The notes under the pieces are model-generated. The model worked only from the letters and a program-made list of their open reading frames with translations. It made no database searches and had not been told where the DNA came from. From positions 391,659 to 455,658 of the forward strand of contig NZ_JXCA02000016.1 in NCBI RefSeq assembly GCF_000828085.3: a stretch of 64,000 nucleotides of DNA, in the 5' to 3' direction. Positions 56,914 to 64,000 of the stretch are shown in pieces; position 1 is the first letter of the stretch; every line of letters starts with the position of its first letter. Origin of the DNA: Scytonema tolypothrichoides VB-61278 (GTDB lineage: Bacteria > Cyanobacteriota > Cyanobacteriia > Cyanobacteriales > Nostocaceae). A program made the translations under genes and the position numbers.

Positions 56914-57591
56914 CTACTTCGCATAAGCCAATGGGTCTTTCAATCCCAGTTCCCCAAAAGCTGCAAGACGCAAACGGCAAGAATCACAGACACCACAAGC
57001 AACATCGTCTCCTTGATAGCAAGACCATGTGAGTTCCCAAGGAACACCCAATTTATTCCCAAGTTGGATAATTTCAGTTTTTTTTAGCTGAATTAAGGGT
57101 GTCTTGATGGAAATGCTTTGCCCTTCGCGTCCTTGTTTTGTTCCTAAACGAAACACTTCCTGCATTGCTTGGATGTAGTCAGGACGACAATCAGGATATC
57201 CAGAGTAGTCTAGGGCATTAACACCTATGTAAACACACTGAGCAGAAATGGTTTCGGCATAGGCAAGGGCAAAGCTTAAAAAGATAGTATTGCGAGCCGG
57301 AACATAGGTGACAGGAATACTTTGAGACATTTCCTCCAGGTCACGCTTCTGAGGTAATTCGATCGCATCATCCGTAAGAGCCGAGCCGCCCCATTGTCTT
57401 AAATCAAACTTTACCACTTGCTGGTCTACCACACCAGCTTTTTGAGCAATTGCCAAAGCTGAGTCTAACTCTCGTCGATGTCGCTGTTGGTAATCAAAGG
57501 AAATGGTATGGCAGTTATAACCATCGGCGATCGCTTGGTATAAAACCGTGGAAGAGTCTAAACCACCAGACAATAAAATGACAGCTTTCAT
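56914..57591 (-). CDS. queC: 7-cyano-7-deazaguanine synthase
   Basis: A 225-residue protein from ATG 57591 (MKAVILLSGGLDSSTVLYQA), two residues shorter than the alternative start. The SGGLDSS P-loop, the substrate region YVPARNTIFLSFA and the zinc-binding Cys cluster near the C-terminus (CYQGDDVACGVCDSC) are intact. It makes preQ0 from CDG, for queuosine or other deazapurines. Confidence 0.96.
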   Translation of the reverse strand: MKAVILLSGGLDSSTVLYQAIADGYNCHTISFDYQQRHRRELDSALAIAQKAGVVDQQVVKFDLRQWGGSALTDDAIELPQKRDLEEMSQSIPVTYVPARNTIFLSFALAYAETISAQCVYIGVNALDYSGYPDCRPDYIQAMQEVFRLGTKQGREGQSISIKTPLIQLKKTEIIQLGNKLGVPWELTWSCYQGDDVACGVCDSCRLRLAAFGELGLKDPLAYAK

Positions 57592-58144
57592 AATCAACTT
57601 GCGGCAGGTGTCGAAACCCAGTACCTAGAGATCTGGGTTGAGGTATAATACCGTTTTACTTTAAGGTTGATACAAATGAACAGCAATGGAGTTGGGAGCA
57701 AGGGGAAATCATTGTAGAAAAATCATTTGTATCAGGCATTTCCTGAAATGGTCTAACACGTAACAAATGAAACTAGGTCGACAACTAATTATCACACAAA
57801 GACTTAACGGTAGTAAAAACCGCCTATGTTCACATTATTCGCTTTGATTTCAAAATACGGGGCTACCACGCTCCCACGTTATTGTAGATTTCGTTTTCGG
57901 TAATCATTTTTTTGTGAAACAAAGAGCACTTGACTAACGTCTTAGTTAGTTTCTAAAACGAATAAAAAGCTCATTAGAATTTTCGTAAAGTGCAAAAAAA
58001 GCATCAATTTAAACACTTCTTATAAAACCGAGTCATATGGCGGGAACTCACAAGAAACTTTGAAATTCTTCATAAATAGAACCTCTATGTTACCATCTGG
58101 ATGGTTTTAGACGCATAGCCATTGGCAGTTGAATATCAAATCCA
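57592..58144. other. Gene-free region with a 12-bp inverted repeat pair
   Basis: A 553-bp gap. TGATACAAATGA at 57668-57679 and its exact inverse at 57723-57734 form a 67-bp palindromic structure. Otherwise it is AT-rich and gene-free. The promoters of the two flanking genes must lie here. Confidence 0.6.
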
Positions 58145-60254: not shown

Positions 60255-60520
60255 AAATTATTGTTTCTAATTAGCGTTGGAAAAATAAGTATTATCTGTG
60301 TAAAAGCAAGTGTTCGCAACTCTCTAACTCTGCTTGTTAGCTTTGTGATTATATGGTATCAAGTGAAACTTAAGCGCTATCTATGTTTATCGCTCAACAA
60401 CTAAGTGGTTCTTTGTATATTGCTTGCTACAGTTGACGCAACAGATGTTTTCTGGTACACCCATTTTTGTAAGATGAGCATGATAACTTGTGAGAGCTAA
60501 GTTAAGTACTAGGAGCTTTT

Positions 60521-61666
60521 ATGACAGATCAACCTTCCGCTGCCACTCCCATGAACGCCGCTGCTATTCCAATGAATAGAGTTTCGGCATCTACTCCGAT
60601 AAATGCTGCTCCCCCTCAACCAGTTGCTGGCGTTTCGGGGAAAAAGATTCTCAGTATTGATTTAGGTAGAACTTCTACAAAGACTTGTATTAGCCGCGAG
60701 TCTAATAATGTGACTTTCGTCTCGGCCAACGTGAAGGAGATGTCAATGGAACAAGTGCGTGGAGGTGTTTTTGAAGCCCGCGCGACTGACCCTTTGATGG
60801 ATCTTTGGCTGGAGTATCAAGGCAATGGATACGCTGTTGGTCAATTGGCAGCAGATTTTGGGGCTAACTTAGGAGTGGGTCAATCTAAGGTCGAATACGC
60901 ACTGATTAAAGTCTTGGCTTGCGCTGGCTACTTTAAGCTCAAAGATGAAATCTCTGTGGTGCTGGGTCTGCCTTACCTTTCTCAAGAACAATTTGAGAAG
61001 GAAAAAGCACAGATCATCAGCCAACTCAATGGTCCTCATGTGATGAACTTTCGCGGAGAATCCGTATCGTTGAATATCAACAAGGTTTGGGTCATGCCAG
61101 AAGGCTATGGCAGCTTACTATGGTGTGAGGGTCAACCAAAGAAAGCCGCAGGAATGCCTGATCTTACCAAAGTCTCCGTGGCAATTGTTGATATTGGACA
61201 TCAAACAACCGATTGTTTGATGGTTGATAACTTCCGCTTTGCCCGAGGTGCCTCAAAGAGTGAAGATTTCGGTATGAGCAAGTTTTATGAACTAGTTGCT
61301 GCCGAAATTGAGGGCGCAGATAGCCAGTCTCTATCTTTAATTGCTGCAGTCAACCGAGCCAAGGGCGATCGCTTTTACCGTCCCAGAGGTGCCAGCAAAC
61401 CCACCAATTTAGATGACTTTCTTCCTAATCTGATAGAAATGTTTTCTCGCGAAATCTGTAACCGCGTGCTAGCATGGCTACCAGAGCGCGTTACCGATGT
61501 AATTCTCACCGGAGGTGGTGGAGAATTCTTCTGGGAAGATGTTCAACGCTTGCTCAAAGAAGCAAAAATTAATGCCCATTTAGCTTCACCGTCTCGGCAA
61601 GCAAATGCTTTAGGGCAATATATTTATGGAGAGGCACAGTTATCCAACGCTCGCGCTAGAACTTAA
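60521..61666 (+). CDS. ParM-like actin homologue (chromosomal)
   Basis: A 381-residue protein. The first ~40 residues are Ala/Pro-rich and probably disordered, an extension not found in plasmid ParM. An actin-fold ATPase follows: phosphate-1 DLGRTSTKT (~47-55), phosphate-2 DIGHQTTD (~224-231) and adenosine loop TGGGGEFF (~330-337). These match ParM/StbA-like actins, which form ATP-driven filaments. The ParR-like gene starts 5 bp downstream, so the pair forms an operon. No iteron-type parC repeats are seen upstream, and there is no plasmid gene near. A chromosomal cytoskeletal role rather than DNA segregation is plausible; I recall reports of such a repurposed ParMR system in Anabaena but could not verify this here. 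Confidence 0.85.
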   Translation: MTDQPSAATPMNAAAIPMNRVSASTPINAAPPQPVAGVSGKKILSIDLGRTSTKTCISRESNNVTFVSANVKEMSMEQVRGGVFEARATDPLMDLWLEYQGNGYAVGQLAADFGANLGVGQSKVEYALIKVLACAGYFKLKDEISVVLGLPYLSQEQFEKEKAQIISQLNGPHVMNFRGESVSLNINKVWVMPEGYGSLLWCEGQPKKAAGMPDLTKVSVAIVDIGHQTTDCLMVDNFRFARGASKSEDFGMSKFYELVAAEIEGADSQSLSLIAAVNRAKGDRFYRPRGASKPTNLDDFLPNLIEMFSREICNRVLAWLPERVTDVILTGGGGEFFWEDVQRLLKEAKINAHLASPSRQANALGQYIYGEAQLSNARART

Positions 61667-61671
61667 CACTA

Positions 61672-62190
61672 ATGTTCCAATGGTCAAAAAAAGTAGTGAA
61701 ATCCGTTACGTTTGAGCCAGGGGTGGCTGACGAAAGCTTGTTAGCTCTTGTGGAAAGTCATTTGGAAAAAGATCCCGAAAAGACTTTCAGCGACCTCTGT
61801 AAAGAAGCCTTATGGCAATCTTTGTGCGTACCGGAATCTGTACGACCAGCCCCGAAACCAGCAGCAGCAACAGCAACAACAACACAAGGGGTGGAACAAC
61901 AAATTGCTGCACTGCAAAGTCAGATGGCTGACCTTGAGGAACGTTTTTTTGCCAAGGAATCTAATCGGTTGCAAATTATGGAACAGCAACTGATACAGCT
62001 GAGCCAACAAGTGGCTCAGTTGGCTATTATGCTGAATAATGTTTCAAGCAGTTCCCCTCCAACCGCTCAACAGGTCTCAACCCTAGAAGTGATCAATCAT
62101 ACTTCTAGTCCTACTTATGCTGCTGCCACTTCTTCTCAAGAAATTGATCCAGTTATCAGCCGTATTAGTCAATTTCTGGATGATTTCTGA
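61672..62190 (+). CDS. ParR-like adaptor protein
   Basis: A 172-residue protein beginning MFQWSKKVVKSVTFEPGVAD. Residues ~8-52 fit a ribbon-helix-helix (VKSVTFEP strand, then DESLLALVESHLEKDPEKTF and DLCKEALWQSL helices). A Pro/Ala/Thr linker follows, then a coiled coil at about 73-122 (VEQQIAALQSQMADLEERFF), and a short C-terminal helix (DPVISRISQFLDDF) like the ParM-binding tail of ParR. It sits 5 bp behind the ParM-like gene. In plasmid systems ParR links DNA and filament ends; here the partner may be something else. Confidence 0.75.
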   Translation: MFQWSKKVVKSVTFEPGVADESLLALVESHLEKDPEKTFSDLCKEALWQSLCVPESVRPAPKPAAATATTTQGVEQQIAALQSQMADLEERFFAKESNRLQIMEQQLIQLSQQVAQLAIMLNNVSSSSPPTAQQVSTLEVINHTSSPTYAAATSSQEIDPVISRISQFLDDF

Positions 62191-62227
62191 GGAAATTTCA
62201 GGGTGTGAATGTGTTTGACTCCTAGAA

Positions 62228-62262
62228 AACCTCCTTAATGAAATCCTCATTAAGGGGGTTTA
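62228..62262 (+). terminator. Terminator of the ParM/ParR-like operon
   Basis: A long stem AAACCTCCTTAATG/CATTAAGGGGGTTT with a 7-nt loop, 38 bp past the ParR-like stop. The T-run is short. Confidence 0.7.
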
Positions 62263-62329
62263 ATGTTTAGATATTTTAATTTTAGTGTTGCTTTATAAGC
62301 TAATCTGTTTATAGCTATTCTATATCTGT

Positions 62330-63538
62330 GTGTTCTGGAAAACTTTACTTTTACCTGACTCCCAATCTGTCAGCCATCAAGATAAGAACTCTCAATTGCC
62401 AGAGAAAAGAGTCTCAAGCTTGAGCGAGATTCAAAAAATTATTCAGCAGCTAGTCACTGCAATTCTAACTGGCTTTCTATTCCACTGGCTGCACATTCCA
62501 GTAGGTTGGCTACTGGCTCCAATCCTGGCGGGAATTGCCTATGTAATTCTCAACGGTAGTCGCCAAGCCCTACCTTCGACGTTTAAAATTGTTGGGCAAG
62601 TCATCATCAGTCTTGTTACTGCGACTCGCCTTTCCCCGGAGACACTCAGTGTGGCAACAAGCTACGCCATCCCTGTGGTACTGTGTGTTTTGACCACGGC
62701 TAGCTTAAGTATGCTCAGCGGCTACCTGTTAAGTCGTTGGGCTGGCATTGATCGCACCACAGGTTTTTTGGGTTTTATACCCGGTGGCGCTTCTAGCATC
62801 GTTGCCATGAGTGAAGAAATGGGGGCAGATACAGTTGCTGTTGCCCTCATCCAGTATATCCGGGTATTGCTAGTCGTGTTAATCCTGCCAGCTGTAGCCA
62901 CCTTACTTTTTCCCGCCAACCCAGACACCCAAACCATAGCTACCGTTGTGACAACAAATAACCTACCAAGACTGCCAATGTTGTTGAACTTATTGATACT
63001 GGCTGTGTGTGGCGGCTTGGGAATTTGGGGAGGAAGGCAATTGCGTCTCCCCTCATCCGGGTTTTTAGGTCCGTTTCTCGTTGGCTTAGTTGTGTTTTGG
63101 ATGCTACCGTACCAAATACAAGTGCCTCAGCCCCTTTTTTGTGCAGGACAACTGCTGATTGGACTGTCTATTGGTGTACAGTTTGACTGGGAAACTGCCC
63201 GCAAACTCTTGCGAGCTGTATTCATTGAGGTAGGTTTGGTTATTGCGTTAATTCTCCTTTGTTTGGGAGTTGGATATGAGTTTCATCTGGTAACACACGT
63301 TGATACAGCAACGGCAGTCTTAGGATTCACTCCTGGGGGAATTGAGGCAATGATTGCCACAGTTATGCAGCTAGGTGGTGACACTGGGTTAGTGCTGGCA
63401 ATGCAATTGACGCGGATGTTGAGTATTTTGTTGATTGCCCCGCCCTTAGTGGCTTTTTTGCTCAAACGTGCCAAACCTGCTCATTCTCAAGCGGAGGAAG
63501 AAGAGGCATTGGTGGAATTGAACCGTCTTGAACCTTGA
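62330..63538 (+). CDS. AbrB-family membrane protein
   Basis: A 402-residue protein from GTG 62330. It has two halves, each with helices ending in GF-(I/T)-PGG-(A/I): GFLGFIPGGASSIVAMSEEM and VLGFTPGGIEAMIATVMQLG, the internal duplication of the AbrB (PF05145) family, named ammonia monooxygenase/AbrB in old annotation. About ten membrane segments. Transport function is suspected, substrate unknown. Its last ~77 bp overlap the convergent homocitrate-synthase-like gene. Confidence 0.88.
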   Translation: MFWKTLLLPDSQSVSHQDKNSQLPEKRVSSLSEIQKIIQQLVTAILTGFLFHWLHIPVGWLLAPILAGIAYVILNGSRQALPSTFKIVGQVIISLVTATRLSPETLSVATSYAIPVVLCVLTTASLSMLSGYLLSRWAGIDRTTGFLGFIPGGASSIVAMSEEMGADTVAVALIQYIRVLLVVLILPAVATLLFPANPDTQTIATVVTTNNLPRLPMLLNLLILAVCGGLGIWGGRQLRLPSSGFLGPFLVGLVVFWMLPYQIQVPQPLFCAGQLLIGLSIGVQFDWETARKLLRAVFIEVGLVIALILLCLGVGYEFHLVTHVDTATAVLGFTPGGIEAMIATVMQLGGDTGLVLAMQLTRMLSILLIAPPLVAFLLKRAKPAHSQAEEEEALVELNRLEP

Positions 63539-64000
63539 AAGCAGAGTAGAGGATTTCATCAACTTTATCCAGAGTAAGATGTTGTTGATCCGCTAAGGCT
63601 TTAATCCTCTTGGTAATCCTTTGAAGTTGGAATTTGTCCAAGTTTAGCCCCAATTGACTTGCTCGATGAGCAATTGCATGCTTTCCTGTAAGCTTGTGAT
63701 TAATCAAAAACGAGCGTGTCAAACCAAAATCACTGGGATTAATCACTTCGTAAGTCTTGGGATTATTGAGGATTGCTTGAGTATGAATACCAGCTTTGTG
63801 GCTGAAAGCTGCTGAACCAAGAATGTAGTGGTTGAAGGGAATAGTGATGCCAACTTTATCAGCGACTAGGTGATGTAATTCTTGGAGGTGATGCAGACAG
63901 TATTTACGCTTCAACTGCTCTGGATCGACAGTGTAAAGGCGAGCAATCAAGCCAGCAAGAGGCGTAATCCCATTACGCTCACCAATTCCTAAGATAGTCG
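63462..64000 (-). CDS. Homocitrate synthase-like protein, N-terminal part beyond window
   Basis: Only the C-terminal ~179 codons are in the window, and the gene runs off the right edge. It reads LGIGERNGITPLAGLIARLY, then the HMGL-like barrel end AFSHKAGIHTQAILNNPKTY with the metal-binding His pair (FSHKAGIH), and DFGLTRSFLINHKLTGKHAI. These resemble fungal/AAA-type homocitrate synthases more than bacterial NifV or LeuA. In a N2-fixing strain homocitrate is needed for FeMo-co, but this type could also serve lysine-like or secondary metabolism. It is convergent with and overlaps the AbrB-family gene by 77 bp. Confidence 0.8.
   Translation of the reverse strand, partial: TILGIGERNGITPLAGLIARLYTVDPEQLKRKYCLHHLQELHHLVADKVGITIPFNHYILGSAAFSHKAGIHTQAILNNPKTYEVINPSDFGLTRSFLINHKLTGKHAIAHRASQLGLNLDKFQLQRITKRIKALADQQHLTLDKVDEILYSAFKVQDGSIPPMPLLPPLENEQVWHV

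Follow-up and report, generated by a model that had tools for sequence, protein, structure and literature searches.

Two adjacent genes of Scytonema tolypothrichoides VB-61278 match the fcmBC (corMR) operon, and copies of FcmB occur in a fused module elsewhere in the Nostocaceae

The genes at positions 60521-62190 of the window, that is, of the whole 64,000-nucleotide stretch of Scytonema tolypothrichoides VB-61278 DNA analysed here, are almost certainly the fcmBC (corMR) operon of this organism, which encodes a membrane-filament actin and a ParR-derived partner for rod shape. Both proteins score above the curated equivalog cut-offs, FcmB with 739 bits to NCBIfam NF052678 (cut-off 300, full profile covered) and FcmC with 222 bits to NF052682 (cut-off 90). 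The FcmBC pair of Nostoc punctiforme was described in mSphere in October 2025 (PMC12645912), and the equivalog matches together with this description make the operon a member of a known system. Since its equivalogs had already been described in 2025, and the family is present in NCBIfam and the PDB, the operon is a further example of a published system and is itself not new, and the novelty hoped for in a first, sequence-only reading of the window finds no support. The gene order given by that reading, a ParM-like ATPase gene followed after 5 bp by a gene for a ParR-like protein (described there as a ribbon-helix-helix (RHH) and coiled-coil protein), is borne out by the ORF list, in which both frames lie on the + strand with a gap of 5 bp, and by the FcmB and FcmC matches. 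The N. punctiforme pair (Npun_R4472/R4471) to which the equivalog scores of both window proteins point, has the same order, strand and adjacency and shows no difference of substance from the operon in the window.

FcmB has the Pfam domains ALP_N (residues 46-197) and MreB-like_C (residues 222-339), and contains the runs DLGRTSTK, VDIGHQTTD and TGGGGEFF, which we take to be its nucleotide motifs. The nearest solved structure is PDB 9rmi (716 bits), whose chain is named CorM; 321 of 378 aligned residues are identical (85%), including 29 of the first 30, and small indels occur in the linker after the N-terminal tail. We assume that this CorM belongs to the CorMR system of Anabaena. The sequence-only reading had mentioned similar ParMR systems from that genus, and the chain name fits this. 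The nearest named relatives of FcmB are found in Brasilonema and Scytonema species, with up to 98% identity in a list that may omit the source organism's own record; by these relatives the host is probably Brasilonema-like and heterocystous. The source genome has one FcmB match and one FcmC match and, apart from these, a gene of MreB type (481 bits). The operon sits on a contig of 914,713 bases, and this length together with the conserved neighbours points to the chromosome.

Because ALP_N begins at residue 46, about 40 residues precede the actin fold, which agrees with the length given earlier for an N-terminal extension; the disorder attributed to it was judged from composition and is presumably present, and its first 20 residues are strongly conserved. 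Conservation was computed over 45 extension-bearing sequences, nearly all from Nostocaceae, with a position counted only where the residue of the source organism is the majority residue. It averages 0.89 over residues 1-20 (60521-60580) and 0.42 over residues 21-40, and lies between 0.57 and 0.94 in 20-residue blocks of the core; residues 1-20 are as conserved as the actin core in this set. The extension is short or different in 16 FcmB sequences of other lineages. Given its conservation, the low-complexity tail is probably a binding motif; the Results and Discussion of PMC12645912, as far as consulted, give no role for it.

For FcmC, no Pfam domain was found above the cut-off and no FcmC chain was found in the PDB. 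The AlphaFold model (32 aligned sequences) is of low confidence, with pLDDT 61 and pTM 0.25; its helices at residues 21-33, 39-52, 71-126 and 160-171 stand in the order expected of an RHH fold followed by a coiled coil, with pLDDT of about 63-70. A profile search of the PDB returned mostly coiled-coil chains, none of them named as RHH. Given the low-confidence model and the coiled-coil matches, the RHH fold is plausible and not proven, and the description of FcmC as an RHH-coiled-coil protein with a ParR-like tail fits the low-confidence model in helix order, coiled coil and tail helix and is weakly supported for the RHH part. On this model, FcmC could plausibly consist of a ribbon-helix-helix, a coiled coil and a C-terminal tail helix. 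The N-terminus reads MFQWSKKVV in 76 of 80 named relatives, and the C-terminus is a variant of DPxIxRxSxxxxDF in all 80. Among 32 aligned sequences there are 47 invariant columns: residues 1-53 hold 29 of them, the coiled coil 11 and the tail 7. Beyond the closest relatives the N-terminus differs (e.g., MALWAKNK) and the tail is still recognisable, as seen in an alignment of 60 FcmC sequences.

Table 1. Positions of the operon features in the window, and of the fused module in other loci
Feature	Position	Strand	Basis
fcmB/corM, ParM-type actin-like ATPase, 381 aa	60521-61666	+	NF052678 and PDB 9rmi CorM
fcmC/corR, ParR-like partner, 172 aa	61672-62190	+	NF052682, FcmC alignments, low-confidence model
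FcmB N-terminal low-complexity extension, ~40 aa	60521-60640	+	Conservation in 45 extension-bearing sequences
Single-copy conserved upstream block and ribosome-binding site (probable promoter and leader)	60432-60520	+	12-row DNA alignment
Hairpin after fcmC, possible terminator	62222-62270	+	-22 kcal/mol, z -4.27
Fused module: HNH-like gene and N-domain fusion	L150:4569-7125, L152:4537-7110, L054, L061, L175-L206		

In N. punctiforme, deletion of either fcmB or fcmC gives rounded cells, FcmB forms circumferential membrane filaments whose placement at the membrane needs FcmC, the two proteins interact with each other and with themselves in two-hybrid assays, and the genes are co-transcribed (PMC12645912). 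The proposal made from the sequence, a filament system for cell shape and not for plasmid segregation, matches what the consulted parts of that paper say of the orthologue and the equivalog scores given above. By analogy, the operon of the source organism would have the same role in rod shape and membrane filaments: the FcmB ATPase would polymerise into membrane-associated filaments around the circumference of the cell, the ParR-derived FcmC would bring these filaments to the membrane, and both together would be required for rod-shaped cells. FcmC may dock on the filament ends via its conserved C-terminal helix and may dimerise via an RHH-like fold whose parC site has been lost, and its aromatic-basic N-terminus, MFQWSKK, is a candidate membrane contact. 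The latter is a testable detail, as is the highly conserved N-terminal tail of FcmB in an otherwise known system.

The gene pair resembles the plasmid ParM-ParR-parC systems (including AlfA, Alp7A and the cyanobacterial plasmid ParMs), in which an actin-like ATPase gene is likewise followed by a ParR-like gene, and FcmB has a weak match to the ParM model NF010498 (58 bits, well short of the cut-off of 417). The differences are that no parC was found beside fcmBC and that it is not on a plasmid. A working chromosomal ParMRC that segregates DNA, with its parC elsewhere, has been discussed for the cParMR of Desulfitobacterium and Clostridium, where chromosomal ParMs and a cParR binding its parC are reported (PMC12270681), and the ParM-type fold and ParR-like partner seen here would suit it. 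However, no direct repeat of 8 nt or more is present in the 266 bp upstream of the operon or in the 213 bp from the fcmC stop, and the best 9-mer occurs in 2 copies in 300 bp upstream, compared with a shuffle mean of 2.25. This iteron score averages 2.39 over 61 free fcmB loci versus 2.22 for shuffled DNA, with 2 of 61 loci above all 20 shuffles; the test is weak, since its control is small and responds partly (four plasmid-type ParM loci, 4.0 versus 2.45 shuffled, one of the four above all shuffles). The earlier statement that there is no parC or iteron array upstream holds within these limits, and the array that was named as a refutation of the cell-shape reading was found neither by the repeat search nor by this weakly controlled score. 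Moreover, no obvious nucleoid defect is reported for fcmBC mutants in the parts of PMC12645912 consulted. Segregation of DNA by this operon is thus very improbable.

The conserved upstream block is probably promoter and leader; a promoter-like site at 60394-60421 is among 5 sites found where 3.3 were expected. Two start sites are described for the N. punctiforme operon, and their use is reduced in sigJ and sigC mutants (PMC12645912). The hairpin downstream of fcmC was equalled by 0 of 200 shuffles. It is a possible terminator of the operon, and this role is unproven because a clear U tract is absent on the + strand and the terminator consensus scan calls the hairpin on the - strand only (1 site found versus 2.0 expected); of the earlier view that a terminator closes the unit, the strong hairpin remains. 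The three neighbours scanned with Pfam are a Gfo/Idh/MocA gene, a VTT/DedA gene and an AbrB-type membrane gene, and the supposed absence of plasmid genes nearby is correct for these three. Two further ORFs of the window, both on the - strand, resemble in translation a QueC-type enzyme (56914-57597) and a homocitrate/isopropylmalate synthase-like protein (63462-63950).

Across the phylum, 62 of 386 genomes have an FcmB match above the cut-off. HetR is a mark of filamentous forms, and HetR_C is matched in 58 of the 62 FcmB-positive genomes (the other 4 have no match) versus 22 of the 324 FcmB-negative ones. The fcmBC genes are described as absent from unicellular strains, and as chromosomal in the loci examined (PMC12645912). 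In the family, FcmC is above the cut-off in 216 of 217 genomes, and the only one without it (G414) has a partial FcmB match alone (98 bits, profile positions 1-80). With the FcmC of the source organism as query, FcmC was recognised 3' of FcmB in 61 of the 62 free loci of the phylum sample, with gaps of -4 to 389 nt; a 175-aa ORF occupies the fcmC position in the remaining one (L065). The gap is 5 bp in all 80 named relatives. Among the 80 loci fetched, 56 have full flanks, and a Gfo/Idh/MocA gene lies upstream in all of these, DedA upstream in 48 and an AbrB-type gene downstream in 4, so the synteny is one-sided. Comparison across genomes, proposed as a check, thus found a conserved Gfo/Idh/MocA and DedA side and FcmB mostly in genomes with HetR_C. 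In one strain (L014, G068) fcmC is split into two overlapping frames 3' of an intact fcmB, and the gene may be broken there or the sequence in error. Two fcmB matches (L055 in G360 and L063 in G374) have one internal stop codon each.

Homologues confined to plasmids had also been named as a refutation, and this is not what was found: a search of 72,556 plasmid records at E 0.01 gave nothing for FcmC, and the four plasmid-borne relatives of FcmB with 64-70% identity are all fused copies that lack an accompanying FcmC. Among the 30 plasmid records listed (104 more matched), 26 are 21-28% identical to the source FcmB. That the operon is the remnant of a plasmid's partition locus, left after integration and now without function, for which one could cite the ParM ancestry of FcmB argued in PMC12645912, is hardly credible, given the near-universal FcmC of the family, the constant 5-bp gap, the invariant FcmC residues, the conserved neighbour, the three scanned neighbours with no plasmid gene among them and the mutant phenotype, which already refutes it for the orthologue.

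The fused copies of FcmB lie outside the window. Besides the four on plasmids (L150, L151, L152 and L153), there are second copies in two genomes (G030 and G245). These genes begin with about 140-290 extra residues, an N-domain that combines a hydrophobic stretch (19-residue hydropathy between 1.9 and 2.5 across the N-domain proteins) with a coiled-coil-like part, which resembles YtxH/SLATT weakly and at scores below the cut-off. The annotated starts of the plasmid ParM/StbA genes omit most of this N-domain; in L150, L152 and L153 the open frame reaches about 140-150 residues beyond the annotated start, and in L151 about 265. No FcmC lies alongside. In 5 of these 6 loci the fused gene is preceded by a gene for a 336-aa protein. 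The distance is 19-33 bp except in L061, where the two are separated by a 281-aa N-domain protein; the 336-aa gene is absent from the stretch seen of the Dolichospermum plasmid (L151). The 336-aa protein keeps the run ASHxkphSkGGSnxpxNIxWExxkxNxxR in a 32-row alignment, presumably an HNH motif; its Pfam HNH matches are below the cut-off, and some distant plasmid relatives are annotated as HNH endonuclease. It matches 71 of 217 family genomes (E ≤0.001), and all 35 places above 300 bits were fetched. We tabulated 38 loci of this module, including L174 (repeating L150) and L182 (close to L152); as they were chosen by FcmB or 336-aa matches, their proportions do not amount to a census. Attached to the N-domain is FcmB in 19 loci (2 of them incomplete), a dynamin-like GTPase in 10 and GUN4 repeats in 1. 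The N-domain protein has nothing attached in 6 loci, of which 3 have a separate dynamin-like ORF following; no N-domain was recognised in the other 2. Pfam confirms Dynamin_N in all 5 dynamin-type proteins that were scanned, and GUN4 in 1 protein. The module is found on plasmids and on chromosome-sized contigs of Nostocaceae. A search of 30 module genomes found FcmB above the cut-off in 29, and all 29 have a free copy of full length. The source genome has no match to the 336-aa protein, and none to the N-domain query, an empty answer which alone shows little.

The 17 complete fused proteins all have the DLG...K and DIG runs, and 16 have TGGGG (TGGSG in L193). The 12 fused sequences of the DNA set, which had been selected by a nucleotide-motif filter, keep 86-97% of 185 nearly invariant free-copy positions, compared with 95-97% in the four divergent free copies that served as controls, and all 12 have another residue in place of alanine 241. 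Left out of the DNA trees were host_G395, L027 and the fused L176, L193 and L152, which failed the motif filter, as well as 16 free sequences of other lineages, L063, the host loci L232-L236, the incomplete fused L204 and L205 and the duplicates L174 and L182. The trees put the fused copies among the free ones in several places, with 5 changes for 12 fused copies in the whole-gene DNA tree and 6 changes for 15 in the protein tree, where a single fused clade has an AU p of 0.047 (0.060 without L151). At least two fused genes, L179 and L192, are mosaics with the free fcmB of their host. Against the free copy of its own host, L179 has 98 and 97% identity in segments one and two and 79% in the third, its last segment being 81% identical to its best match; L192 is 98 and 97% identical to the host's copy and then at best 90 and 87% identical to any. 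The two were compared with the free copies L221 and L220, and no such jump with the host's fcmB is present in the other 10 fused sequences. Front and back trees disagree for both mosaics, and one fused clade is rejected with p of 4e-43 in front and 0.0004 in back, for groups named after the tree had been seen. More than one exchange between free and fused fcmB is thus supported. Independent capture of fcmB by the module was considered and dropped, as the mosaics leave it indistinguishable from gene conversion.

A defence-island setting of the module was likewise rejected. PADLOC matches among 107 ORFs (at least 120 aa) flanking 34 of the 38 loci are scattered over 56 families, including SspB, BrxH-like helicases and DpdE; of the 25 families shown, 4 have two members and 21 have one. 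In the control, 107 of 112 listed ORFs flanking 22 free fcmBC loci, there are 66 families, with QueC in 12 members, IetA in 6, and methylases; in view of this control we claim no defence enrichment. No description of the fused module was found by literature searches on cyanobacterial or anti-phage HNH, dynamin-like, GUN4 and actin-like systems. GUN4 and HNH are placed in conflict systems of cyanobacteria or multicellular prokaryotes in PMC7159879 and PMC8195603, the consulted parts of which mention neither 'ParM' nor 'actin-like'. The architecture is an observation, and any function is guesswork: the module might be a conflict system that maintains an up-to-date copy of the host's shape actin to lure or sense invaders attacking FcmB filaments, the HNH protein being the effector, a reading that we consider rather doubtful. 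FcmB and dynamin may equally well be no more than membrane polymers in the module.

If real, the fusions would mean that a shape-determining actin has become part of a nuclease-membrane module that in its other forms contains dynamin, and that sequence passes between free and fused fcmB; they would then matter more than the two testable details of the operon. The operon itself represents a striking published case in which machinery for DNA segregation has been put to use as a cell-shape skeleton, and here it was recognised from raw sequence.
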